From contig JAKATW010000030.1 of assembly GCA_021827945.1 (NCBI GenBank), positions 1-37,247 on the forward strand: a stretch of DNA of 37,247 bases, given 5' to 3'. Position numbers and translations under genes: made by a program. This DNA is from Thermoplasmata archaeon (lineage in GTDB: Archaea > Thermoplasmatota > Thermoplasmata > Thermoplasmatales > GCA-001856825). Positions 13,624-29,492 of this stretch are shown in pieces; the first letter of the stretch is position 1; every line of letters begins with the position of its first letter. The notes beneath the pieces are model-generated. The model saw only the letters and a program-made list of their open reading frames with translations. It was not told the DNA's origin and did no database searches.

Positions 13624-14480
13624 ATGTCGCCCCAGGAACTTCTCCTGATATTCTTGATTACTCTCGGATTTTCTGGGGCAATCCCAATTGCAAAGGTGGG
13701 AGTAAACAGTGCGAATGTGCAGGGGTTTACTGCTATCTACATATCAGGGATCGTCTTCACGATGTTTGTAGAACAGTTGATATTCATACCTTTGAAGGCT
13801 TCCTTTGTCTCTTTCGGCCCCCCAGTTCTTGTGATCATCATTGCAGGTACGGTTGGTGCGTTCGGTTACCTCTCAGGATATGGAGGAATGAAGAAGGTCC
13901 ATGCCGGGATATCCAGCACAGTATTCAATTTGCAAGGACCGTTAATACTATTATTTGGAGCTCTTTTCACATCTATCTATCCAGGAAACATGATCACTCT
14001 TGGCCTTATTATTTCTCTAATGGGAATCGTGCTGATCGGTTCTTCAAGGGTCAAATTGAAGAACATGGCACTCGGCATCCCCTTCATTCTCGTAGTACTA
14101 GCTCCGATACTATGGGCATTAGAGTGGGTCTTCTTCTCTACAGTATCCGTAAAAGACCCGATCTTCTTCACCTTCCTTTTGTACCTGACAGCTTGCCTTG
14201 TAACCCTCGCCATAGGGATAGGCAGAAATACGCTATTCACAGCCCTAAGAGGGCTGCAACATATGCATTTATCGGGGGTGCTCTTGCTGGCGTTGCCAAC
14301 GCATCTTATGGAGTTTTCATCACAAACTTTGGTACAGCGCTAACAGGGATTGTGACTATAATTTCAGTTCCAGTATCAGTACTCTTGGTGATATCGGTTC
14401 TTCATGAAAGGTATTCGACAAGCGAAGTTATTGGACTAATCGTCACTGGAATAGGATTGGGAATCGCGTTGATTCTTTGA
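13624..14480 (+). pseudogene. EamA/DMT-family transporter split by a frameshift
   Basis: Two overlapping ORFs together make one drug/metabolite transporter of about 285 aa with ten membrane segments. The first (13624-14343) encodes the N-terminal five-helix half and the start of the second, up to about LAIGIGRNTLFTALRG. The second half (KRAATYAFIGGALAG...GIALIL) continues in the frame one base back, ending at 14480. The switch lies near 14245-14258 (CCCTAAGAGGGC). A one-base deletion explains it. No homopolymer or slippery heptamer is seen, so programmed shifting is unlikely. It may be a real inactivation or a sequencing error. The family exports or imports amino acids, sugars or metabolites. 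Confidence 0.8.
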
Positions 14481-16117: not shown

Positions 16118-16909
16118 TCAACTTCTCTGTCGTTCTCTAAGCAGCTCTGCCAGCTGTGTCGACTTCTCGGCAACATCTCCTTCTATGAACACTTTCTTTC
16201 TTCGGATTGGTGTTATTTCACTCAATCCTCTCACAAACGTGAAAGAACCTTTATTGCCCGTGACCTCTTCTCTCAGACCAAGATCTCGAGATGACCATAC
16301 CGTTAGGTGAAACTGCGAGAGTGCCCTTTTCATCTTCTTGAAATCCGGGAATCTCGGTTGTACCGCTCCCATCTCTACACTTACCATTGCTGGGAGAGAT
16401 GTCTCAACTACTTCGTGTCCTCCCCTTATTCTCCTCCGTACCCTTAGTTTGCCTGCATCAGCCTCAACGGAAGAGGCAAACAGCACTTGGGGAATGTCCA
16501 GGAACTCTGCAATCTGTCCAGGTAGCTGTCCAAGCGCGGCATCGGATGACTCCTCACCCGCAAGGACCAGGTCATAATCCCCGATCTGAGCTATTGCAGT
16601 CGATAGAACGAGTGCGGTCGGATAGGTGTCTGCACCTCCAAAATTTCTGTCAGAAAGAAGAATGGCATCATCAGCCCCCATAGCTACTCCCAGTTTTAGG
16701 AAGTTCTCAAACAGAGGTGGGCCCATAGAGATAAGAATAACTCTCCCACCCTGCTTCTCTCTCACCCTAAGAGCGATCTCGATTGCAGTCTTGTCAGCTT
16801 CGTTTATCTGGTTCTCCGCCTTACTCCTGTCCAACCTCTTTGTCACTGGGTCAAAAATGATGTTTTCTGACTTCGGGACTACCTTCAGACAAACGATAAT
16901 GTTCCTCAT
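16118..16909 (-). CDS. etfB: Electron transfer flavoprotein beta subunit
   Basis: The 263-aa EtfB begins with the family strand MRNIIVCLKVVP and contains INEADKTAIEIALRVRE, and the nucleotide-binding loop GEESSDAALGQLPGQIAE, where the usual GKQ.DGD is replaced. It pairs with EtfA to bind FAD (and AMP or a second FAD) and carries electrons between flavin dehydrogenases and iron-sulfur proteins. The ATG overlaps the EtfA stop (ATGA), and it is the last gene of the eight-gene operon. Whether this ETF is bifurcating cannot be settled by eye, but its position beside HdrA/HdrD genes favours a role in flavin-based electron coupling. Confidence 0.92.
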   Translation of the reverse strand: MRNIIVCLKVVPKSENIIFDPVTKRLDRSKAENQINEADKTAIEIALRVREKQGGRVILISMGPPLFENFLKLGVAMGADDAILLSDRNFGGADTYPTALVLSTAIAQIGDYDLVLAGEESSDAALGQLPGQIAEFLDIPQVLFASSVEADAGKLRVRRRIRGGHEVVETSLPAMVSVEMGAVQPRFPDFKKMKRALSQFHLTVWSSRDLGLREEVTGNKGSFTFVRGLSEITPIRRKKVFIEGDVAEKSTQLAELLRERQRS

Positions 16910-17880
16910 CGTTTCTCCTCCAGTTTCTTAATGACAGCGGGAACGATTTCAGCTACATCGCCAACCACGCAGTAGTCCGAGTGGTTGAATATTTCTGATT
17001 CTTTGTCTATGTCTACAGATATAACGGTCCCGCAGTCCCTTATGCCTGATGTGAAGTGCTCCGAACCACTTACGCCCAAAATTAAAGTAAGTCTGGATTT
17101 CAGGGAATATCCGGTGGTTCCCACCTGCAGATCCCTGGGGGCTAATCCTTTGTCGGCGAGGGGTCTAGTGACTCCCACGTCAGAGTTAGTGAGTTCAGCA
17201 AGCCTCCGGACCATTGAAAGGTCTCCTCCAATTCCGTTCCCTCCGACTATCGTTCTCTCGGACTTGGTGAGATCCTTTGACTTTGTGACCTTTCTCTCTA
17301 TTACCCTTACCCTGTCTTGAATCGATGAGAGATCGGGTATCACCTCGACGATCTCCCCTTTCCTGTCCTGATCAAAGAACTTCGTGAATGTACCAGGTCT
17401 AACGGTTGACATCTGTGGACGAGCTCTCTCGCACACAATCTCTGCCATTATTTTGCCTCCATATGCGGGAACACCAAAAACGAGAAGCCCTTCCTCATCC
17501 ATTTTAAGGTTAATTGCGTTTGCAGTAAGTCCCGTTCTGAGCCTTGCTGCAAGTCTTCCCGCAAGATCCCTACCATAGTAGGTTGCACCGATCAGAAGAG
17601 CTGTTGGAAATTCCGATGAGGCTAAATCGAAGAGAACTTTTGAATACAGATCGTTCGAATACTCATTGAGCCTCTCGTGCTTCATCAGAATCACCTTGTC
17701 AGCACCGTACCTGATAACATCCCGCAACACACTCTCGTTAGATGTGCCCAGCACGATACCCACGACTTTATATCCTGATGACTTAGCAAGGACGGTCAAT
17801 TTACCCAGAATTTCAAGGGACACATCCTCTATCTCGTCTTCGTTCCTCTCGACAATTACCCATATCTCCTTTCTAGTCAT
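16906..17880 (-). CDS. etfA: Electron transfer flavoprotein alpha subunit
   Basis: The 324-aa EtfA has the N-terminal domain (WVIVERNEDEIEDVSLE) and the conserved C-terminal FAD domain: TRPLADKGLAPRDLQVGTTG, GVSGSEHFTSGI and the final DYCVVGDVAEIVPAVI. The usual SGGRGL at the domain entrance reads VGGNGIGG, and GISGAIQH reads GVSGSEHF, so the flavin pocket differs in detail from the standard respiratory ETF. It overlaps the HdrD-like gene (ATGA) and etfB (ATGA). The likely partners are EtfB and the HdrD-like iron-sulfur protein; the dehydrogenase that feeds it is not in the window. Confidence 0.92.
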   Translation of the reverse strand: MTRKEIWVIVERNEDEIEDVSLEILGKLTVLAKSSGYKVVGIVLGTSNESVLRDVIRYGADKVILMKHERLNEYSNDLYSKVLFDLASSEFPTALLIGATYYGRDLAGRLAARLRTGLTANAINLKMDEEGLLVFGVPAYGGKIMAEIVCERARPQMSTVRPGTFTKFFDQDRKGEIVEVIPDLSSIQDRVRVIERKVTKSKDLTKSERTIVGGNGIGGDLSMVRRLAELTNSDVGVTRPLADKGLAPRDLQVGTTGYSLKSRLTLILGVSGSEHFTSGIRDCGTVISVDIDKESEIFNHSDYCVVGDVAEIVPAVIKKLEEKR

Positions 17881-19001
17881 TTCAGATTCTCCTCCAGAAA
17901 TTCCGCAAACTCTTTCACGCGGACGTTCACTCCATTGGTCTTTGCGCTATCCAGGAGGTTCATGTTGCATATCGGACAGGAGGTTATCACAGTCTCTGCT
18001 CCCGTATCCCTGGCCTGTTCAATTCTGAAATCAGAGAGTCTCTTTCCCTCAAAATCGACGAACATCCTGTTTCCACCTCCTCCACAGCATAGGCTGTCCT
18101 TTCCCGAAGATGACATTTCCTTGACTTCTATCTCTGGGAAGAGGCTGAACATTTCCCTCAAGCTATCCGGTCCGTCGCCATATCTACTCAGGTAGCATGG
18201 ATCGTGAATCGTGATCTTCCCGTGCGCCTCCTTCCCGAGGTTCACCTTACCGTCTTGCAGCAGGGAATTGAGGAAATCAGAATAGTGTTTCACTTCAAGC
18301 TTCATCCCACTTTTCTTGTAGACCGTATTGAACATGTTCCCACAGTGCGGTGAGAAAGCCACTATCGTCTTTGCCCCGGTCTTCTCAAACTGCTCAATGT
18401 TATCCTGGACTAGATCGTCAAGGAAGTACCGTTCACCTGCGTTCCTTACCGGTTCTCCGCAGCATTTCTCTTCATTTCCCAGTATTCCAAAATCAACACC
18501 AGCCTTTTTCAAGATATCGGCCAGGCCCTTAAGTGACTTGTGAAGATTTTTATTGTAGGCTGCGTCACATCCAACGTACAGAAGAACCTCCGTTCCCTCT
18601 TTGGCATCTTTGAGGTTGAGTCCCTCTGACCATTTCGATCTGTCCACCTTCTTTCCGCCCCACGGGTTGCCAGTTTCGTAGATGTCCCACAAAAGTTTGA
18701 CTATCTTATCCGGTGCCCTTCGCTCTTCAAACTCAAGCTGGCGGAGGCCAGTAATTACATTCACGATCTCTACCTGCCTCGGACAGGACTGCTCGCAGAG
18801 TTTACATGTAGAACAGTTCCACACGGTTTCGGAGATATCAAGACCAATCTGGGCCCTTCGCATCAGATTTCTGACGTCCAGGTCTTCTTCTCCCAAGTAA
18901 CCAAGCGGACAGGTCGCGGTACACACTCCGCACTGGAAGCACTCGTTTCCGTTGAATCCGGTCAGGTTGGTGATCTTTTCCCACCTGAGATCATCGATCA
19001 C
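17877..19001 (-). CDS. HdrD-like CCG-domain iron-sulfur oxidoreductase
   Basis: The 374-aa protein has a HdrC-type ferredoxin part with two [4Fe-4S] motifs (C21, C24, C27, C31 and C63, C66, C69, C73) fused to two CCG domains. The second CCG is complete (C269, C305-C306, C342-C345). The first has C145, C180-C181 and C220 but serine at 217 where the first Cys of CxxC would be, so it may bind a different cluster or none. The order equals HdrC+HdrB fused, as in HdrD, GlpC and GlcF. No membrane helix is present. The start is a GTG sharing a base with the HdrA stop (TAGTG). It probably carries electrons between HdrA and the ETF. Confidence 0.9.
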   Translation of the reverse strand: MIDDLRWEKITNLTGFNGNECFQCGVCTATCPLGYLGEEDLDVRNLMRRAQIGLDISETVWNCSTCKLCEQSCPRQVEIVNVITGLRQLEFEERRAPDKIVKLLWDIYETGNPWGGKKVDRSKWSEGLNLKDAKEGTEVLLYVGCDAAYNKNLHKSLKGLADILKKAGVDFGILGNEEKCCGEPVRNAGERYFLDDLVQDNIEQFEKTGAKTIVAFSPHCGNMFNTVYKKSGMKLEVKHYSDFLNSLLQDGKVNLGKEAHGKITIHDPCYLSRYGDGPDSLREMFSLFPEIEVKEMSSSGKDSLCCGGGGNRMFVDFEGKRLSDFRIEQARDTGAETVITSCPICNMNLLDSAKTNGVNVRVKEFAEFLEENLK

Positions 19002-22000
19002 TAACGTCTTATCACTCCCTTCAGCTTCGAATCAGTGCTCGTAATCTCATCTCTTGAAAGAGATTTGATAAGTGCGTCCATTTCCCTGATCTTTGAGGCA
19101 AACCTGTTGCCTTCAGCCGCGCTGACCCACCACAGCTGCAGTCTATCGGGATTGACCTTCTTTGCTTCCAGAAAGTGTCTCCATCTCTCCACCCTCTTTT
19201 CCGTGTACTCGTTGGCATCAATATAATGGCAGTCGTTTATGTGGCAGCCCGTTACGAGTACAGCACCTGGGTTCCGGCTGAAGGCGTACATCACGAGCTT
19301 CTGCGAAATTCTGCTTGAACACATGGTCCTAATGACTCGTGCGCTTGGAGGGTACTGGATTTTGGAAATTCCTGCCTGATCTGCCCCTGCGTAGGAGCAC
19401 CAGTTGCACGCAAAAACAACCAACTTTTCCTCAGGCTTTTCTGCGGTTGCAGCATCTATCTGCGTCATGATTTCCGAATCCGTGAAATTAGGCATGGTGA
19501 TTGCCCCGTCTATGTTGCACTCTGCTACACAGTTTCCACATCCCATACAGGCTGCGGGAACGAGATTTATCCATTTCCCTCTCTCTCCCTTTATTGCTCC
19601 GTATGGGCAGACTTCCGCGCACCTAAGACACTTCACGCACTTTTTCTCGTCTATCTGTGGTATTATGGGTTCTTTGTTTATCTTACCACTAAACAGAAGT
19701 TTTGCAGCCTTTGCAGCAGTCGCGTATCCCTGCGATATGGACTCCTTTACACCCTTTGGTCCCTGAACAGTTCCAGCAAGGAAGACTCCCTGTACAGCGG
19801 CCTCTACCGGTCCAAGCTTGGGGTGCACTTCCAGCAGAAACCCTTCGCTATCTCTCGAGAGCTTGAGTTGAGTAAATATCTCCTCGTCTTTTGGCTTCAG
19901 CCCAATGTTCAGGACGAGATGATCCACCGGTGCCTTCATCCTGGTGGACGATAGCTGATCCACGAAAGTCAATGAAGAGCCATCAAATTCCAGGGCCTCA
20001 CTGGGGGTCTTGGAGGGATCGTACCGGAAGAATTGGACGCCCTTCTCCCCCGCCTTTCTGTAGAGTTCCTCCGCATTTCTCTCGTACGCCCTGATGTCCT
20101 TGTAAAAGACACGAACAGTCTTCCCCTTTTCCTTCAGATCTATTGCCTGTTGGAGCATGGTAGAACAGCAGAATCTCGAACAGCCTCTCTCTCCATTTCT
20201 CGAGCCTATGCAGGAAATCATAGCATATTTGTCGCCCTCGACCTTGGAGTAGCTCTTCTCCAGATCGAGAGAGGTTATCACCTCTGGAACTTCTCCGTAC
20301 CTGAATTCGGTTGGCTGGTATGGGTCCGCCCCAGTGGCAATAATGACCGCACCTGCATCGATTTTTCCACCATCTGACAGTGTCGCTGAGAAGTTCCCGA
20401 CGAATCCCGTTATTTCCTTTACTGTTGTGGAGGTGTGAACAGTTGCACCAGAGTTCTGCAAGCCCTCCTGCAGTTTTTGAAGAGTCCTGTCTGCCCTCTC
20501 AAGTTCCGGAGAGACTATGTCTATCGAATTCAGAAGTCCACCCAGTCTCCCTTCTTTCTCGACTAGGTGAACCTCAATGCCCATCCTCGAGAGAGAAGAT
20601 GCAGCCGCAATCCCGGCAGGTCCTCCGCCTATGACCAGACCAGTTCTGATAACGGGGAACTCAATGTCATCCATTGGAGTGAGTAGCCTGGCCTTTGAGA
20701 CTGCCATGTTCACGATGTCTACAGCCTTTTCAGTGGCCAGGATCTTCTCCTTCTTGTGGACCCAAGAGTCCATGTTTCTAACGTTGGCCATCTCAAAGAG
20801 GTATGGGTTCAGTCCCGCTCTAGAACACACCCTCTGGAATGTAACGCCGTGGGTCTTGGGAGAACAAGCTCCAACGACGAGTCTGTTCAGTTTCTTTTCC
20901 TTTATCTTCTCCCTGATAGAATCCTGCGTGCTCCCTGCACAGGTATATTTGTTCTCCTCCACATAAGCTACGTTGGGCAGGGCCCTTATTTGGTCCACAA
21001 CCTTTTTGACGTCAACGACCCCCGCAATGTTGGAGCCGCAGTCGCACAGGAAAACACCAATCCTCGGGTCTCCAGAGACATCCAGGGGAGGAGGCAGAGG
21101 TTCCTCTATCCATTCTCTCTTCTTCACGTATCTCAGTGCCTGGGCCGTTGCAGCGGAGGCTTCCGTCACGCTATCTGGAATATCCTTAGGTCCAGAGGCG
21201 CAACCTGCAACGAAAATTCCGTTTCTGGTTGTTGAAACAGGGTCTTCAAGTCTGTTCTTGAAGAATCCGTCCTCGGACAGTTCAATTCCAAGGGTTTTCG
21301 CTAGCTTGGGAGTGCCCTTCGATGGGATGGAGGCAGTTGCCAGAACGACCATTCCATATTCTTCCTCTATGATCGAACCATCGCTCGTCGCATACCTCAC
21401 CGATATGTCATCATCCTTCCTCTTCACGGATGCAGGTCTTGACCTTATGTATCTAATGTCCTTTTGAGATCTCGAGTAGAGTTCGTCGAATCCTTTTCCG
21501 TAAGCCCTTATGTCCATGTAGAGTACAGTCACGTTCTTTATACCGTGATCCACGAGCTGCGATGCCTCCTTTATTGAGTACATGCAGCACGTCCTCGAGC
21601 AGTAGGGAACGAACCTGGTATCGCGAGACCCTGCGCAGAGAACGAACAAGACGCTATCCGGATGCTTTCCGTTGGAAGGTTTTATTATCTCCCCCTCAGT
21701 CGGACCCGCAGCATTGATAAGTCTTTCCAGCTCGTATGATGTCACTATGTCTGGGTCAGATGAGTAACCAAATTCGTCCAGAAGCGAGGCATTGAAGAGG
21801 TCAAAACCAGTTGCTACTATTATGGACGCAACGTTTTCTCTTATGACGCTGGGTGCCATGTTAAAATCTATTGCATCGGGTCCGCACGCATCGGTGCATC
21901 GTCCGCACGGAAGATAGTTCGGAGGATCATTCAGGCAGCTCTCTATATCTATAACGTAGGGTCCTGGTTCTGCCTGGGAAAATGGCGTGTAAATTGCCTT

Positions 22001-22387
22001 CCTTGCTCCAATGCCAGCATCAAATTCATTCTTGCGAATCTGAGGACATGCTTGGGTACACAGGTCGCATCTGGTACACGCATCCGTCACAAACCTCGGT
22101 TTCTGGTTGATCGTTACCTGGAAATTTCCCTCTTCCCCCTTCACCTCGGTGACCTCCGCAAGGGTGAGCACCCTGATGTTCGGATTGTGTGTGACGTCGC
22201 TCATCTTGGGTGCCTCTATGCATATCGAACAATCAAAGGTCGGAAAATTTTTGTCGAGGGCAGCCATCTTGCCACCAATGGAGGCTGTCTTCTCGACCAG
22301 CAGGACCTCTGCTCCGGCCTCTGCCAGATCGAGGGAGGCCTGGATACCCGCTATTCCTCCTCCTATAATCAGTACCTTATCTGCCAT
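19001..22387 (-). CDS. Tandem HdrA-HdrA-ferredoxin-MvhD fusion protein
   Basis: This 1128-aa protein is a heterodisulfide reductase A-type flavoprotein in duplicate. Residues about 1-430: FAD fold (IIGGGIAG), HdrA cysteine insert (FPTFDCSICIEAPKM, C53/C56) and ferredoxin-type clusters (C104, C107, C110, C114, then PCGRCTDACGP). About 440-900: a second HdrA core (LCDCGSNIAG, GACSPKTH, VIGGGPAGIAA, ISCIGSRNGERGCSRFCC). About 905-965: two [4Fe-4S] motifs. From about 988: an MvhD/FlpD [2Fe-2S] domain (CNWCSYAGAD, MCSSR, TGCHINDCHY). I moved the start to M11 of the track ORF because GAGGGGG precedes that ATG by 6 nt. The gene overlaps both neighbours. The architecture resembles QmoA plus QmoB in one chain. 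Confidence 0.93.
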   Translation of the reverse strand: MADKVLIIGGGIAGIQASLDLAEAGAEVLLVEKTASIGGKMAALDKNFPTFDCSICIEAPKMSDVTHNPNIRVLTLAEVTEVKGEEGNFQVTINQKPRFVTDACTRCDLCTQACPQIRKNEFDAGIGARKAIYTPFSQAEPGPYVIDIESCLNDPPNYLPCGRCTDACGPDAIDFNMAPSVIRENVASIIVATGFDLFNASLLDEFGYSSDPDIVTSYELERLINAAGPTEGEIIKPSNGKHPDSVLFVLCAGSRDTRFVPYCSRTCCMYSIKEASQLVDHGIKNVTVLYMDIRAYGKGFDELYSRSQKDIRYIRSRPASVKRKDDDISVRYATSDGSIIEEEYGMVVLATASIPSKGTPKLAKTLGIELSEDGFFKNRLEDPVSTTRNGIFVAGCASGPKDIPDSVTEASAATAQALRYVKKREWIEEPLPPPLDVSGDPRIGVFLCDCGSNIAGVVDVKKVVDQIRALPNVAYVEENKYTCAGSTQDSIREKIKEKKLNRLVVGACSPKTHGVTFQRVCSRAGLNPYLFEMANVRNMDSWVHKKEKILATEKAVDIVNMAVSKARLLTPMDDIEFPVIRTGLVIGGGPAGIAAASSLSRMGIEVHLVEKEGRLGGLLNSIDIVSPELERADRTLQKLQEGLQNSGATVHTSTTVKEITGFVGNFSATLSDGGKIDAGAVIIATGADPYQPTEFRYGEVPEVITSLDLEKSYSKVEGDKYAMISCIGSRNGERGCSRFCCSTMLQQAIDLKEKGKTVRVFYKDIRAYERNAEELYRKAGEKGVQFFRYDPSKTPSEALEFDGSSLTFVDQLSSTRMKAPVDHLVLNIGLKPKDEEIFTQLKLSRDSEGFLLEVHPKLGPVEAAVQGVFLAGTVQGPKGVKESISQGYATAAKAAKLLFSGKINKEPIIPQIDEKKCVKCLRCAEVCPYGAIKGERGKWINLVPAACMGCGNCVAECNIDGAITMPNFTDSEIMTQIDAATAEKPEEKLVVFACNWCSYAGADQAGISKIQYPPSARVIRTMCSSRISQKLVMYAFSRNPGAVLVTGCHINDCHYIDANEYTEKRVERWRHFLEAKKVNPDRLQLWWVSAAEGNRFASKIREMDALIKSLSRDEITSTDSKLKGVIRR

Positions 22388-22910
22388 ACTTGGCCCCCTC
22401 GTCGTACCCGCGCTCAAAACACGCTATATTTGCATCCACATACTTGGGGAACCTCTTCGTTATTGCCCTTCTCCCCGACTCAGCTGAGAAAGTCTTTGTC
22501 AGGCCAGAAAATGCTCCCATCAGTACTATGTTTGCCCCCTTAGGGTTCCTCAGGGACTTTGAAATCTCTATACCGTTGATCTCTATGCTTCTGGGCCTCA
22601 TGTTTTCGGGAACTGTCACCAGACTCTTCTCTGTTAGTACCGTTGATTTTGAGTCTAGATCTTTAAGTGTCGCGTCTAATCCTTCTTGTGAAAGAGTCAC
22701 CAGGTAATTGAGTTCTTCAGGAAGCGGATAGTCTATCGTCTCATCACTTATGACCAGATCAGCCTTGGACCACCCTCCGGTGATATAAGGACTGTATTCC
22801 TCGGTCATTATGACGAATTTTCCATCCTCTAATGCCGCCTCCCCAACCAGTTTTGCAAGAGTTATTATCCCCTGACCTCCCATTCCGTACATCCTGATTC
22901 CAAGCTTCAT
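22377..22910 (-). CDS. korC: 2-oxoacid:ferredoxin oxidoreductase gamma subunit
   Basis: The 177-aa protein has the gamma-subunit fold, starting with YGMGGQGIITLAKLVGEAA, then EEYSPYITGGWSKADLVISDE. The family subunit usually contacts CoA. The gene overlaps both neighbours: ATGA with the beta gene and 11 nt with HdrA. It belongs to a four-subunit enzyme (delta, alpha, beta, gamma) that converts a 2-oxoacid and CoA to an acyl-CoA and CO2, giving two electrons. The specificity (2-oxoglutarate, pyruvate or branched) is not determined by this subunit. Confidence 0.88.
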   Translation of the reverse strand: MKLGIRMYGMGGQGIITLAKLVGEAALEDGKFVIMTEEYSPYITGGWSKADLVISDETIDYPLPEELNYLVTLSQEGLDATLKDLDSKSTVLTEKSLVTVPENMRPRSIEINGIEISKSLRNPKGANIVLMGAFSGLTKTFSAESGRRAITKRFPKYVDANIACFERGYDEGAKYGR

Positions 22911-23749
22911 TTCCTCGCCCCCATTGCTTTTTCCACAAGCTCATTTTCCAGCATGACGTAAGAAGGTCTCTTCCTGTCGACGAAATCTCCAAGAATGACC
23001 GGTTTTCCATGGAACGGGTCAATGGATACGTCCTCGAGCCTCGCATCATTCTGCACCGTCGATTTGGTGCGGTAGAACTCCATCTCTTCAAAACCATCTC
23101 CGAATCCGTTGAATTTGCCAAAATTTGGGGGGCACGGAGAAAGCACTTCAATGAAAGCAAATCCCTTCGTATCCATAGCCATTCTGATCGATTTTGCAAG
23201 CTGTCTTGGGTGCATTACCGTCCACCTGGCCACATATGAAGCCCCAAGGGCTGATGCAAGGTAGGGGAGGTTGAAAGTTGGTTCAACGTTACCGTAAGGG
23301 GTGGACGCTGACTTCGAGGTCAGCGGAGTAGTTGAACCGTGCTGTCCGCCCGTCATTCCATAATTGAAGTTGTTTGAACAGATAACGACAAGGTCCATGT
23401 TTCTCCTGGCAGCGTGGATAAAATGGTTTCCTCCGATGTTGAAGAGATCGCCATCACCGCTTATCACCGTGACCTTCAGTTCTGGGTTTGCAATTTTCAT
23501 CCCAGTAGCGAAGGGTATCGCCCTCCCATGCGTGGTGTGATACGAATCGAATTTGGCGTAGCCTGGAAGTCTAGCCGTACATCCGATTCCTGAAACGAGA
23601 ACTTGTCGTTCTAGAGGTACCGCAGACTTTTCAACTGCATTCAGGTAACTCTGTAGGAGGATACCGAGTCCGCAGCCAGGGCACCACACGTTTGGAAATC
23701 TCTCTTCCCTAATGAGAGCGTGTTTTGGATGGAACTCTTCAGTGGTCAT
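22907..23749 (-). CDS. korB: 2-oxoacid:ferredoxin oxidoreductase beta subunit
   Basis: The 280-aa subunit binds thiamine pyrophosphate and a [4Fe-4S] cluster. Cluster cysteines are C23 and C26 (VWCPGCG), C57 (GIGCTARLP) and a later one in SPCPPN. The TPP/Mg motif is GDGD at 98-101 followed by the asparagine of ICSNNFNYGMTGGQ. These match 2-oxoglutarate-type ferredoxin oxidoreductases. It overlaps the alpha gene at its start and the gamma gene at its end (ATGA at both). Electrons from TPP-bound substrate pass here to the cluster, then to the delta subunit or, in this operon, possibly to HdrA. Confidence 0.93.
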   Translation of the reverse strand: MTTEEFHPKHALIREERFPNVWCPGCGLGILLQSYLNAVEKSAVPLERQVLVSGIGCTARLPGYAKFDSYHTTHGRAIPFATGMKIANPELKVTVISGDGDLFNIGGNHFIHAARRNMDLVVICSNNFNYGMTGGQHGSTTPLTSKSASTPYGNVEPTFNLPYLASALGASYVARWTVMHPRQLAKSIRMAMDTKGFAFIEVLSPCPPNFGKFNGFGDGFEEMEFYRTKSTVQNDARLEDVSIDPFHGKPVILGDFVDRKRPSYVMLENELVEKAMGARK

Positions 23750-24882
23750 ATGAACGTCCCCTCGATTTTCTTAAGGATGATGCTGTAATCTGGAACTGCT
23801 CCTGGTGGAAAATGGATCTCCTTGGTCTCGGATCTACTGTACTCTCTTATCGGGTGTGAATACTGACCGTAGTTGATCTCCGGAACTATGAATTCCCTCG
23901 TCCGTTCCGCAATCTGTTCGATCCTCTTCTGCGGAAAAGGCCACAGGGTTATTGGCCTGAAGAGACCCACTTTAAGTCCCCGCTTTCTGGCAATACTCAC
24001 GGCCTGCTTTGCTGCACGGGAAGTTATACCGTATGCAACAACGGTCACCTCGGCGTCCTCCATGAAAAATTCTTCGTATCTCACTATTTTTCCCTCATTG
24101 TTCTTCACCTTACCGAGTAGATGCTCGAGCATCTCCCTCTCAACAGAAGCTTCATTTGAAGGATAGCCTCTCTCGTCGTGCGTCAGGCTGTCGACATTTC
24201 CCTTGAAGCCTGTTCCAGCAACAAACATTGGAATGTAGTCTTCTGTGTAACTGAAGACTCTATTCTCATCATCATGCTTCCTTGTCATCCTCTGGACGAC
24301 CTCATACTCCTCAGATGGCTTCACCTCTAAGACTTCCGAAAGATGACCTACAACTTGGTCAGATGCTATTATGACTGGTTGTCTGTACTTTTCAGCAGAA
24401 TTGAATGCCTCTATTGTAATATCGAAGGATTCCTGAACGCTGTTTGGAGCATATGTTATCGGTGCCAGATCCCCATGGGAGCCATATCGTGTTTGCATTA
24501 CGTCTCCCTGACCAACCCTGGTCGGGATGCCCGTGGAAGGGCCGGCTCTCATCTCATCCAGAACGACGGTGGGAGTTTCAGTTATGATACCTAGGCCGAT
24601 GTTCTCTTGCATAAGTGAAAACCCTGGGCCAGAAGTGGCGGTCATGCTCTTTGCACCTGCGTTGGAAGCTCCAATTATTGCGGCCATGCTTCCTATTTCG
24701 TCTTCCATTTCAATGAAGTGCCCACCAAGTTTTGGCAGCCGTTCACTCATCCTTTCTAGCACTTCGCTGGAAGGAGTTATAGGATAACCGGCGAAGAATC
24801 TGCAGCCACCCATTAGAGCACCCTCCGTAACTGCAAAGTTGCCGTCAGCAAAGTACTTGCCTGGTTCCAGCAGAGCAGTCAT
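23746..24882 (-). CDS. korA: 2-oxoacid:ferredoxin oxidoreductase alpha subunit
   Basis: The 378-aa subunit carries the FAGYPITPSSEVLE motif that contacts the 2-oxoacid carboxylate, the E-rich EMEDEIGSMAAIIGASNAGAKSMTATSGPGFSLM segment, and GIPTRVGQGDVMQTRYG. I shortened the track ORF (start 24951) to the internal ATG at 24882. This gives an ATGA overlap with the delta gene and a GGGAGG ribosome binding site 7 nt upstream, and the removed 23 residues read in another frame of the delta gene. It forms the catalytic core with KorB. Confidence 0.93.
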   Translation of the reverse strand: MTALLEPGKYFADGNFAVTEGALMGGCRFFAGYPITPSSEVLERMSERLPKLGGHFIEMEDEIGSMAAIIGASNAGAKSMTATSGPGFSLMQENIGLGIITETPTVVLDEMRAGPSTGIPTRVGQGDVMQTRYGSHGDLAPITYAPNSVQESFDITIEAFNSAEKYRQPVIIASDQVVGHLSEVLEVKPSEEYEVVQRMTRKHDDENRVFSYTEDYIPMFVAGTGFKGNVDSLTHDERGYPSNEASVEREMLEHLLGKVKNNEGKIVRYEEFFMEDAEVTVVAYGITSRAAKQAVSIARKRGLKVGLFRPITLWPFPQKRIEQIAERTREFIVPEINYGQYSHPIREYSRSETKEIHFPPGAVPDYSIILKKIEGTFI

Positions 24883-25178
24883 ATCTGTACCTCCCTTACG
24901 AAAATTGCAAAGTCTGGACAGATGGTCTGGCACATTCCGCAGGCAACGCACGAATCTTCCTTACCTGCTTTTACCCTGACTGGATGGTAGCCGTGACTGT
25001 TCACAATGGGAGATCTTTCCAGAACATCATTTGGACAGTAGTTCGTGCAATAATTGCACTCCTTGCACCTTTCGGGAATTATGTGCACCTCCCCTCTGGG
25101 CTTGGCGAACTTTTCATAATTAACTGGTTCTCTCCAGATCTCTTTTTGGGCATCAGAAATCTTAGGTCCTTTCAACAT
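24879..25178 (-). CDS. korD: 2-oxoacid:ferredoxin oxidoreductase delta (ferredoxin-like) subunit
   Basis: This roughly 100-aa protein holds two [4Fe-4S] motifs, CKECNYCTNYCP and CVACGMCQTICP, flanked by PERCKEC and SPIVNSHGYHP. It is the electron-exit subunit of the 2-oxoacid oxidoreductase and the first gene of the operon. The start is uncertain: the track begins at a GTG (25187), whereas I prefer the ATG three codons later (25178, MLKGPK...). Both are within reach of a TATA box near 25220 that gives only a short leader. It overlaps korA by ATGA. Confidence 0.9.
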   Translation of the reverse strand: MLKGPKISDAQKEIWREPVNYEKFAKPRGEVHIIPERCKECNYCTNYCPNDVLERSPIVNSHGYHPVRVKAGKEDSCVACGMCQTICPDFAIFVREVQI

Positions 25179-25216
25179 AATATGCACTATTAAACAATAA
25201 CATTATTCTTAAATCT

Positions 25217-26683: not shown

Positions 26684-26692
26684 CTTATATTA
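26684..26692 (-). promoter_or_regulatory. TATA box of tRNA-Leu, contains gcvPB stop codon
   Basis: TAATATAAG on the minus strand is centred 26 nt before the first base of the tRNA and encodes the last codons and TAA of gcvPB. The predicted transcription start coincides with the mature tRNA 5' end. Confidence 0.65.
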
Positions 26693-28160
26693 CTTGCTGT
26701 AGTGGCTCCCTTTGCTCCTTTCGAACCATTCTCAGGGTCGGCTTTGGATTCTTTGAGGCGTCGACATCGTCGATCCTCGTGACTTTCAGATTCATAGGTT
26801 CCTTTTCAAAAGTTTCGTGTGTCAATTTGAGTGTTTGTCTTACGGTCTCAACAAACAGATCCATCTCTGCCTTTGTAGCACTTTCAGTTGGTTCAATCAT
26901 GAGAGCCTCAGGAACGATGAGGGGGAAGTAGATGGTCGGGGCATGGACTCCGTTATCTATCAGGTGCTTAGCAATGTCCCCTGCCTTTGGCATGTTCTGT
27001 CCTACGGATGAAGCTACGAATTCGTGTTTTTTGACTGTTTTGCCTGGTACTGGCATGAATTCCTGGATCTTTTTCCTCATATAGTTGGAGTTCAGGACTG
27101 CAGTTTCACAAGCGTCTCTGAGACCTTCCTCTCCCATCATTTTTATGTAAGTCCAGGCCCTTACAAGTACGCCGAAATTTCCGTAGAAGCTAGCTACTTT
27201 CCCTATCGATTTCGGTGGGGCATAGTCGTTGTAGTACTTCTCACCATCAAACGTTACCAGTGGATAGGGAAGGAAATCCTTGAGTTTCTCTACCACTCCC
27301 ACAGGTCCCGCACCTGGCCCTCCGCCCCCATGAGGCGTGGAGAATGTCTTGTGGAGGTTGAGGTGGACTATATCGAATCCCATCTTGGCAGGGGTGGTCT
27401 TTGTCATAATTCCATTCAGATTTGCGCCATCGTAGTAGAGCAGAGCCCCTTTAGAATGAGCATAGTTTGCCATTTCTACAATCTTATCCTCAAAGATTCC
27501 TAGTGTGTTCGGATTTGTGATCATGAACGCGGCGGTCCTCTCCGTTACTGCCTCTTTGAACTTTTCGATGTCAACTGTTCCATCTGGGGTGGAAGGAATC
27601 TGGACCACTTCGAAACCTGCCATGTGAGATGATGCAGGGTTGGATCCATGTGCAGAATCTGGAACTACGACCTCCCTTCTGGTTTCAAGCTCCTTCTTGC
27701 ACTCGAAATATGCCCTTACTATTGATAGTCCGGTAAACTCTCCTCCCGCTCCAGCAAGCGGTTGGAGTGTTATCTCGTCCATTCCAGTAATCTTCTTGAG
27801 AGACTCTGAGAGTTCGTAGAGCAGTTTCAATGCGCCCTGGACCTCGCCGCAATCCTGAAGAGGATGGATCATCCTGAATCCCTCCAGGCCTGCGATTTCA
27901 TCGTTGATCTTTGGGTTATACTTCATTGTACAGGATCCCAGGGGGTAAAAGCCGGTATCTGCACCGAAATTCATTTCTGAGAGTTTCACAAAGTGCCTGA
28001 TGACTGAAAATTCTTCCCTGTCACCAATTCCAACACTTTCTCTCTTCATGATCTCTGGTACTGTTATTTTGAAGTTCTCGTTCTCCCGAGGAATCTTTAA
28101 GGTTCTCCTTCCCCTTAAATCGAGGATGATTGGCTCATCAAACACGGCCTGATGATACAT
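26685..28160 (-). CDS. gcvPB: Glycine dehydrogenase (decarboxylating) subunit 2
   Basis: The 491-aa protein is the C-terminal half of the PLP-dependent P-protein of the glycine cleavage system. The Schiff-base lysine is K271 in HLNLHKTFSTPHGGGGPG; the PDSAHGSNPAS, NPNTLGIFE and YYDGANLNGI segments are canonical. With subunit 1 it decarboxylates glycine and loads the aminomethyl group on lipoyl-GcvH. GcvH and GcvT are not in the window. The ATG follows the gcvPA stop directly (TAGATG), so the subunits are coupled. Confidence 0.96.
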   Translation of the reverse strand: MYHQAVFDEPIILDLRGRRTLKIPRENENFKITVPEIMKRESVGIGDREEFSVIRHFVKLSEMNFGADTGFYPLGSCTMKYNPKINDEIAGLEGFRMIHPLQDCGEVQGALKLLYELSESLKKITGMDEITLQPLAGAGGEFTGLSIVRAYFECKKELETRREVVVPDSAHGSNPASSHMAGFEVVQIPSTPDGTVDIEKFKEAVTERTAAFMITNPNTLGIFEDKIVEMANYAHSKGALLYYDGANLNGIMTKTTPAKMGFDIVHLNLHKTFSTPHGGGGPGAGPVGVVEKLKDFLPYPLVTFDGEKYYNDYAPPKSIGKVASFYGNFGVLVRAWTYIKMMGEEGLRDACETAVLNSNYMRKKIQEFMPVPGKTVKKHEFVASSVGQNMPKAGDIAKHLIDNGVHAPTIYFPLIVPEALMIEPTESATKAEMDLFVETVRQTLKLTHETFEKEPMNLKVTRIDDVDASKNPKPTLRMVRKEQREPLQQVI

Positions 28161-29492
28161 CTATGCCACCTCCCTCAGGAATTCCCTGTATGCATTGAAA
28201 TCTTCATTCGTATTTCTCTCTGTCACATTGGTCACAATATTTACCTGGTTCCTGTCGTTAAATCCATAGTCCTTCCCGAGCATGTACCCCGGGTTCAGAT
28301 TGTACTTCTTGGCTATCCGGCTTACGAACGTTTTAGACTCCTTGAGTCTGATCAAAAATTCATTGAAAACAGGAGATCCTTCATATGGAAAATACGTGCC
28401 AAACTCTTTTGCGATCTCAATGAGTTCTCTCGTTCTGCCCATGTTGACTTCTCCAATCTTTCTGAGACCTGAGTCTCCAAGCAAAGAGAGATATACGGCT
28501 GATGCAACTGCCATCAGTGCCTGATTGCTAGTCATGTTGGTTACTGCCCTCTCTCTCCTAATGTGCTGCTCTCTGGTCTGGAGAATCATTGAAAATGCAA
28601 CATTACCATTGTGATCTTTAGTCATTCCCATAATCTTTCCCGGCATCTTTCTGATATATTGTTCCTTAGTTCCGAACAAGCCAACTACTGGACCTCCATA
28701 ATTGAGACCGAGACCCAGCACCTGCCCTTCCCCAATTGCAATGTCTGCGCCGAATTTTCCCGGTGGAGCAAGTACTCCCAGAGAGATTGGGTTAACTCCA
28801 GCTACGAATAATCTCTCCTCTCCAATCATCTCTTTGATCTTTGAGACGTTTGTATCTATGATGCCGAACATGTTTGGATACTCCGCATAGACTCCAGATG
28901 TATTTTCAGTGATCATCTTTTCAAGAGAAGATAGATCGATCATTCCCCTGTCGTCAAAATCGACCTCCTTAATTCTTATGCCTGCACCTTTAGCATAGTT
29001 GTCCAGAACGGCCCGCCTGTTTCTGCTTATGTACTTAGGAACTATGAACTCATCCTTGCCCGTTATGTTCTTCGCCATTCTAGCAGCTTCACCTAGGGAG
29101 GTGGCCACATCGTACATTGAAGAATTTACCGCATCCATCTCTAGGAGCTCTGCAACAAGGCTCTGATACTCGTAAAGAGCCTGCATTATGCCCTGAGATA
29201 TCTCTGCCTGATAGGGGGTGTATGCTGTCAAGAATTCGTTCCTGTTCACGACATTGGCTATGGCAGCTGGAACGAAATGATTATACATACCGAAACCCAG
29301 GAACGAATGCTGCTGATTGACCGTCTTGTTCATGCCTGCATACTCACCAGCTACTCTCCTTATTTCATCTTCATCCAGTCCTATGGGAAGACCCAATATT
29401 CTGGTTCTTATTGATTCTGGGATGTCTCTGAAAAGTTCATCGGGACTTTGGATTTTTAACTCCTTCAATAATTCTGATAGATCGTTACTCAT
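28161..29492 (-). CDS. gcvPA: Glycine dehydrogenase (decarboxylating) subunit 1
   Basis: The 443-aa N-terminal-half subunit of glycine decarboxylase starts ...FRDIPESIRTR and contains SFLGFGMYNHFVPA, TAYTPYQAEISQGIMQALYEYQ and EGQVLGLGLNYGGPVVGLFG. Length and motifs match the two-gene P-protein of archaea and Gram-positive bacteria. It is the first gene of the pair. Its minus-strand TATA-like TTTTATT (about 29520-29526) is half of a perfect palindrome shared with the divergent transporter region, leaving a leader of only a few nt. Confidence 0.96.
   Translation of the reverse strand: MSNDLSELLKELKIQSPDELFRDIPESIRTRILGLPIGLDEDEIRRVAGEYAGMNKTVNQQHSFLGFGMYNHFVPAAIANVVNRNEFLTAYTPYQAEISQGIMQALYEYQSLVAELLEMDAVNSSMYDVATSLGEAARMAKNITGKDEFIVPKYISRNRRAVLDNYAKGAGIRIKEVDFDDRGMIDLSSLEKMITENTSGVYAEYPNMFGIIDTNVSKIKEMIGEERLFVAGVNPISLGVLAPPGKFGADIAIGEGQVLGLGLNYGGPVVGLFGTKEQYIRKMPGKIMGMTKDHNGNVAFSMILQTREQHIRRERAVTNMTSNQALMAVASAVYLSLLGDSGLRKIGEVNMGRTRELIEIAKEFGTYFPYEGSPVFNEFLIRLKESKTFVSRIAKKYNLNPGYMLGKDYGFNDRNQVNIVTNVTERNTNEDFNAYREFLREVA

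Follow-up and report, generated by a model that had tools for sequence, protein, structure and literature searches.

We analysed a window of 37,247 nt from a Thermoplasmata archaeon (GCA_021827945.1, contig JAKATW010000030.1, positions 1 to 37,247). Eight genes lie on its minus strand in the order korD-korA-korB-korC-hdrAA-hdrD-etfA-etfB, and most neighbours within the cluster overlap by 1-11 bp. The longest product, HdrAA, is encoded by an ORF at 19001-22387, which is open from an ATG at 22387 that overlaps the end of korC. The start of KorA was set by comparison with homologues. The features are as follows.

24879..25187, minus strand: KorD, dicluster ferredoxin subunit of a 2-oxoacid oxidoreductase (KOR); 8 Cys in 43/43 sequences
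23746..24882, minus strand: KorA, 378 aa when read from the conserved start, the mechanical ORF opening at 24951; above the NF006412 cut-off
22907..23749, minus strand: KorB, TPP subunit (PF02775); GDGD...N motif invariant
22377..22910, minus strand: KorC (PF01558); 11 bp overlap with the HdrAA start
19001..22387, minus strand: HdrAA, double HdrA-ferredoxin-MvhD fusion (type II HdrA), 1128 aa
21098..22387, minus strand: HdrAA residues 1-430 (3-430 in the searches), FAD unit 1; E221 and K273 kept, HdrA N-terminal domain absent
22220..22246, minus strand: FPTFDCSIC, including C56, the equivalent of HdrA Cys197 by alignment
21878..22105, minus strand: residues ~95-170, inserted ferredoxin domain with 8 cysteines, from cysteine conservation
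20663..21070, minus strand: residues about 440-575, HdrA N-terminal Fe-S domain (C448, C450, C483, C508) with FLCDCGSNIAG
19673..20650, minus strand: residues 580-905, FAD unit 2; C-CxxxCC cluster motif kept, K409 position occupied by Q746
19493..19663, minus strand: residues 909-965, C-terminal dicluster ferredoxin, from profile search and conservation
19052..19432, minus strand: residues 986-1112, MvhD/FlpD domain (PF02662 at 990-1110, E 7e-43)
17877..19001, minus strand: EtfD-like protein ('HdrD'), soluble, with HdrC-type 2x4Fe-4S and two CCG domains, from fold, sequence and ligand conservation
16906..17880, minus strand: EtfA (PF01012, PF00766)
16118..16909, minus strand: EtfB, bifurcating type by sequence; A124 at the Gly123 position, R159

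A scan for TATA-like motifs gave matches at chance level. The cluster adjoins a gene for a PTO1314-family radical SAM protein (TIGR03961; 25349-26353, plus strand), which separates it from two genes reading like glycine decarboxylase P-protein subunits (26685-29492, minus strand). At 13624-14480 (plus strand) a DMT-permease-like membrane protein is apparently interrupted by a frameshift close to 14.25 kb, frame 1 stopping and the transmembrane pattern going on in frame 3; an assembly error or a pseudogene may lie behind this.

An earlier note on this DNA, which named no strand, had described the 1128-aa chain as carrying two diverged HdrA-type FAD domains, and our data bear this out. The aligned parts of the two FAD units are 27% identical. 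An AlphaFold model of the single chain (pLDDT 86.8, pTM 0.88) can be superposed on HdrA twice, by residues 1-424 on HdrA 150-575 (Z 49, rmsd 1.8) and by residues 439-983 on HdrA 2-652 (Z 41, rmsd 2.5). GxGxxG motifs are present in both halves and, taken with the superpositions, therefore indicate an HdrA-type FAD fold with predicted FAD sites in each. The motifs were also as stated: FPTFDCSIC is found only in the first FAD unit, as is the inserted 4Fe-4S ferredoxin (where model confidence is lowest, around residues 120-129), and LCDCGSNIAG marks the entry to the second. The dicluster ferredoxin and MvhD domain reported for the chain end were recovered by profile and sequence search, confirming the tandem HdrA-HdrA-ferredoxin-MvhD arrangement. 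In 48 full-length sequences (the window's own and 47 homologues) all recognisable Fe-S cysteines of both halves are invariant except at one site (47/48). The layout is therefore far beyond chance. C56 is kept in 48/48, and the C...CxxxCC cluster motif is conserved in each FAD unit. When HdrA dimerises, the N-terminal cluster of each chain is completed by Cys197 of its partner, and in fused HdrAs these elements are lost in a complementary way (PMC9012536); the same split between Cys197 and the N-terminal domain accounts for the missing FPTFDCSIC insert in half 2.

The window genes were matched against 79 named homologous loci. We refer to the 60 loci with an HdrAA match of at least 49% identity as the KOR-linked clade, and genes were counted only where the contig reaches. 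The gene order of the window is preserved there. Within the clade, KorB was found at 46/46 loci, KorA at 40/40, KorD at 37/37 and KorC at 48/49; downstream, HdrD was present at 52/52, EtfA at 50/51 and EtfB at 41/41. All eight genes occur together at 36 loci. More distant type II HdrAs, in contrast, had KorB at 1/16 loci and EtfA at 0/11. The carriers include Thermoplasmatota, Nitrososphaerota, Asgard archaea (Heimdall/Kariarchaeota), Chloroflexota and one Elusimicrobiota bin; the names were taken from bins, and individual ones could be in error, but the synteny was read within single contigs. Distance matrices of the subunits correlate with r 0.85-0.95, a value that shared descent alone can produce; it fits co-inheritance and does not prove a complex. 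At locus L072 (a Candidatus Eisenbacteria bin) KorDABC lies beside a more distant type II HdrA, 43% identical, with the lysine kept in both FAD units, possibly an intermediate or a separate origin of the KOR linkage.

Double HdrAs have been named 'type II' and derived from two different single HdrA classes, and an MvhD-fused class (A3+MVH) is listed among the type II forms (PMC12054007), and duplicated HdrA fused to MvhD has been described in archaea (PMC11237513). HdrAA has two thioredoxin-reductase (FAD) units in one chain, with the N-domain only before the second, as in type II. In a tree of separated halves, its second half groups with all other type II second halves (SH-aLRT 100), and the halves of the KOR-linked clade form two clean groups (support 99 each). 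HdrAA is thus a type II HdrA, a fusion form that was already known. On the question raised in the earlier note, whether phylogeny would reveal a common HdrA form of known function, the form is indeed common but we found no function for it; the biochemistry of type II HdrA is stated to be unstudied (PMC12054007). In a drawn sample of 145 Thermoplasmatota genomes, 55 had a strong double-HdrA match, four of which, assigned to the KOR-linked clade, are set apart by score (>1700 bits vs 1450 for the next). Several double-HdrA matches (G099, G212, G100 and other Thermoplasmatota) run through a single in-frame stop codon (TGA, TAG or TAA), in many cases ahead of MvhD; this may reflect separate mvhD genes or selenocysteine.

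The two flavin sites were found to be unequal. E356 and K409 of M. thermolithotrophicus HdrA, which correspond to E221 and K273 of HdrAA, have been proposed as the signature of bifurcating HdrA; in type II HdrA their presence in both FAD units is usual (75%) but not obligatory (PMC12054007). In FAD unit 1 both were kept in 48/48 full-length HdrAA sequences. In FAD unit 2 the glutamate was retained in 43/46 KOR-linked chains, whereas the lysine was lost in 45/46 (replaced by Q, G, S, A, H and others). HdrAA therefore departs from the usual type II pattern, and in view of the lysine loss we rejected the idea of two equivalent bifurcating flavins. Outside the clade, the picture for type II HdrAs is mixed. 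Of the two FAD domains claimed earlier, both have the HdrA fold, but the sites are not equivalent; the residue pattern suggests one bifurcating flavin (FAD 1) and one relay flavin (FAD 2).

We next turn to the partner called 'HdrD'. The earlier description of an HdrD-like protein holds for its HdrC- and HdrB-like domains. Its best solved sequence match, however, is mycobacterial EtfD (PDB 9ojn, E 7e-49), which is also the better fold match, with Z 32 over 361 residues against Z 21 for HdrB. In EtfD, five Cys bind the second CCG cluster (D2) together with a capping His that renders it non-catalytic, and in the ETF partners FadF and DgcB the cysteines of the first site (D1) are dispensable (PMC13083937). 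In 'HdrD' the corresponding D2 ligands (C269, C305, C306, C342, C345 and H219) were invariant in 54/54 sequences, the pattern of the EtfD/FadF/DgcB family. At the D1 site the CxxC is missing (S217) and several homologues have lost the cysteines, so that the two complete CCG motifs and two catalytic non-cubane clusters of an HdrB-type partner in HdrABC are not found. As D2 is invariant and D1 dispensable, we read 'HdrD' as an EtfD-type ETF partner whose probable role is to pass electrons on to ETF, not to reduce a disulfide. The protein is 374 aa long and aligns only to EtfD 285-746; the membrane domain of EtfD with heme b is missing. A second soluble EtfD-like protein, with a complete CPHC, is encoded on contig C44 of the same genome (L105, L106), followed by EtfB-EtfA and adjoining an enoyl-CoA hydratase-like gene. 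This set is probably a beta-oxidation ETF route.

The position of Gly123 in A. fermentans EtfB distinguishes bifurcating from canonical ETF (PMC12630350). It was occupied by a small residue in 49/49 EtfB sequences (G35/A12/S2); the window EtfB has Ala, not Gly. The five best PDB matches of EtfB were all from bifurcating ETF complexes. By sequence, EtfB is of the bifurcating type with a predicted FAD/NAD(H) function. A search for ETF-QO gave only weak FixX-like matches, one genome excepted. On contig C152 of the same genome (L101, L102), EtfAB is accompanied by FixC- and FixX-like genes, a set that resembles the quinone-linked EtfABCX.

KorA passed the cut-off of a general 2-oxoacid model, and KorB scored best to 2-oxoglutarate models but below their cut-off. 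The substrate is putatively 2-oxoglutarate, with other 2-oxoacid oxidoreductase (OFOR) genes in the genome (contigs C4 and C48) weighing against a firm assignment. KOR is thus not the only enzyme of its kind in this genome. An argument that the hosts lack a classical 2-oxoacid dehydrogenase was dropped, as an E2 gene was found in 21/27 module-bearing genomes. The suggestion that MvhD here lacks its usual hydrogenase partner was supported: no NiFe hydrogenase was found in the genome (87% complete), and hydrogenase was present in only 1/12 module-bearing Thermoplasmata genomes. KOR, proposed in the same note as a replacement donor, is a likely electron source, backed by the invariant synteny. 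Heme-copper oxidase genes were found in 9/12 module-bearing Thermoplasmata genomes and 18/28 other carriers; with COX1 this common among hosts, the idea of an obligate-anaerobe module was dropped.

Taken together, these results lead us to propose, at a confidence that falls just short of even, that a conserved electron-transfer module, KOR-HdrA-EtfD-ETF, has HdrAA as its hub and NAD+ as its probable end. KOR (KorDABC) would oxidise a 2-oxoacid, probably 2-oxoglutarate, and low-potential electrons would pass through KorD to HdrAA, entering by the MvhD/C-terminal ferredoxin end, the inserted ferredoxin or both. The halves of HdrAA would act as their own 'HdrA dimer', with C56 of half 1 serving as a ligand to the N-terminal cluster in half 2. 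FAD 1, the only HdrAA flavin with both bifurcation residues, would be the bifurcating site, and FAD 2 a relay. Electrons would leave to the soluble EtfD-like protein and travel through its capped, non-catalytic cluster to the alpha-FAD of EtfAB, where the bifurcating-type beta-FAD may join one higher- and one lower-potential electron to form NADH. The data show the architecture of the chain, the conservation of its motifs, the operon with its synteny, and the types of EtfD and ETF; a single physical complex with these contacts, 2-oxoglutarate as substrate, the oxidative direction and NAD+ as end acceptor are what we infer. Against the proposal, electrons at the potential of KOR could reach NAD+ by simpler routes, so that the model gives no reason for a bifurcation-type flavin; the Ala of the window's EtfB at the diagnostic position also speaks against it. 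It is possible, though we rather doubt it, that the whole forms a hitherto undescribed supercomplex running from KOR through a double HdrA, in which one flavin bifurcates, and on through a soluble EtfD to EtfAB, with two bifurcation sites in series, also in oxygen-respiring prokaryotes.

Other readings of the locus were considered. HdrAA, HdrD and EtfAB might form one NADH/ferredoxin-linked ETF complex, with KOR an independent enzyme, encoded in the same operon but in contact with that complex through free ferredoxin alone. KorD is a complete dicluster ferredoxin, and the EtfAB-EtfD pair on contig C44 stands without KOR, both as this arrangement would have it; yet KOR is present at every reachable clade locus, against 1/16 type II relatives, and loose partners would be expected to part at times across phyla. 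We regard it as somewhat unlikely. A reversed module, in which ETF/HdrAA would bifurcate NADH and so power KOR as a reductive carboxylase, draws on the reversibility in principle of HdrA and bifurcating ETF reactions and on the EtfB type, but the operon encodes no high-potential acceptor subunit and the oxidases of many hosts fit oxidative metabolism better, making this improbable.

A true disulfide reductase, with HdrAA bifurcating and the HdrD-like protein reducing some disulfide as HdrABC does, would agree with an HdrA hub holding K/E in FAD 1 and with the HdrC- and HdrB-like domains. It is just as improbable as the reversed module, given the degenerate CCG1, the EtfD-type His ligand on a non-catalytic CCG2 cluster and a best structural match to EtfD, not HdrB. 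The comparison of the chain with QmoA plus QmoB holds for domain layout, and a Qmo-like quinone-interacting complex built on a QmoA-QmoB fusion would share that order. In the tree of halves, however (a quick method with long branches and only two Qmo sets), QmoA and QmoB group together, away from both HdrAA halves; half 1 is 33-35% identical to QmoA and 42-46% to canonical HdrA; and none of the eight operon genes is a qmoC, HdrD scoring 37.5 bits against the NF038018 cut-off of 300. We therefore rejected the fusion and consider such a complex highly improbable.

HdrA belongs to the electron-bifurcating flavoproteins and is best known from methanogens. The module described here ties a conserved HdrA to 2-oxoacid oxidation and ETF in non-methanogen lineages, many with terminal oxidases. 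If it is a true complex, electrons from KOR would be channelled via HdrA and ETF and not simply to free ferredoxin, the metabolism of many uncultured archaea and Chloroflexota would have to be reconstructed differently, and the role of type II HdrA would become directly testable. In searches of the openly accessible full-text literature we found no description of the eight-gene cluster, the asymmetric flavins or the EtfD nature of 'HdrD'; the novelty lies in these, the fusion being known.

Compared with known systems, HdrAA is closest in build to type II A3+MVH (PMC12054007) and the archaeal fusions (PMC11237513), which likewise have two fused thioredoxin-reductase units, the N-domain in the second and a C-terminal MvhD. 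It differs in forming a separate clade, in the loss of the FAD 2 lysine and in its partners, KOR, an EtfD-like protein and ETF instead of HdrBC, FdhB or molybdopterin proteins. Moorella HdrABC-MvhD-MetVF and the ANME fused HdrA3/HdrA4 show the same complementary Cys197 and N-terminal domain, but their partners are methylene-THF reductase and FdhAB-like proteins, and the HdrA3/HdrA4 halves are stated in the order opposite to that of HdrAA (PMC9012536). QmoA and QmoB of sulfate reducers, read consecutively, have the same domain order, but are separate proteins with another phylogenetic position and with QmoC and APS reductase as partners. Mycobacterial EtfD, which works with EtfBA, resembles 'HdrD' in fold and in its D2 ligands including the His; it has a membrane/heme part and couples to menaquinone, whereas 'HdrD' is soluble and paired with HdrA. 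Finally, the bifurcating ETFs (CarDE, Bcd-EtfAB, Ldh-EtfAB, EtfABCX) share the EtfB sequence class and the small residue beside the beta-FAD, but pair with acyl-CoA or lactate dehydrogenase or FixCX, while EtfAB here accompanies an EtfD/HdrA module.
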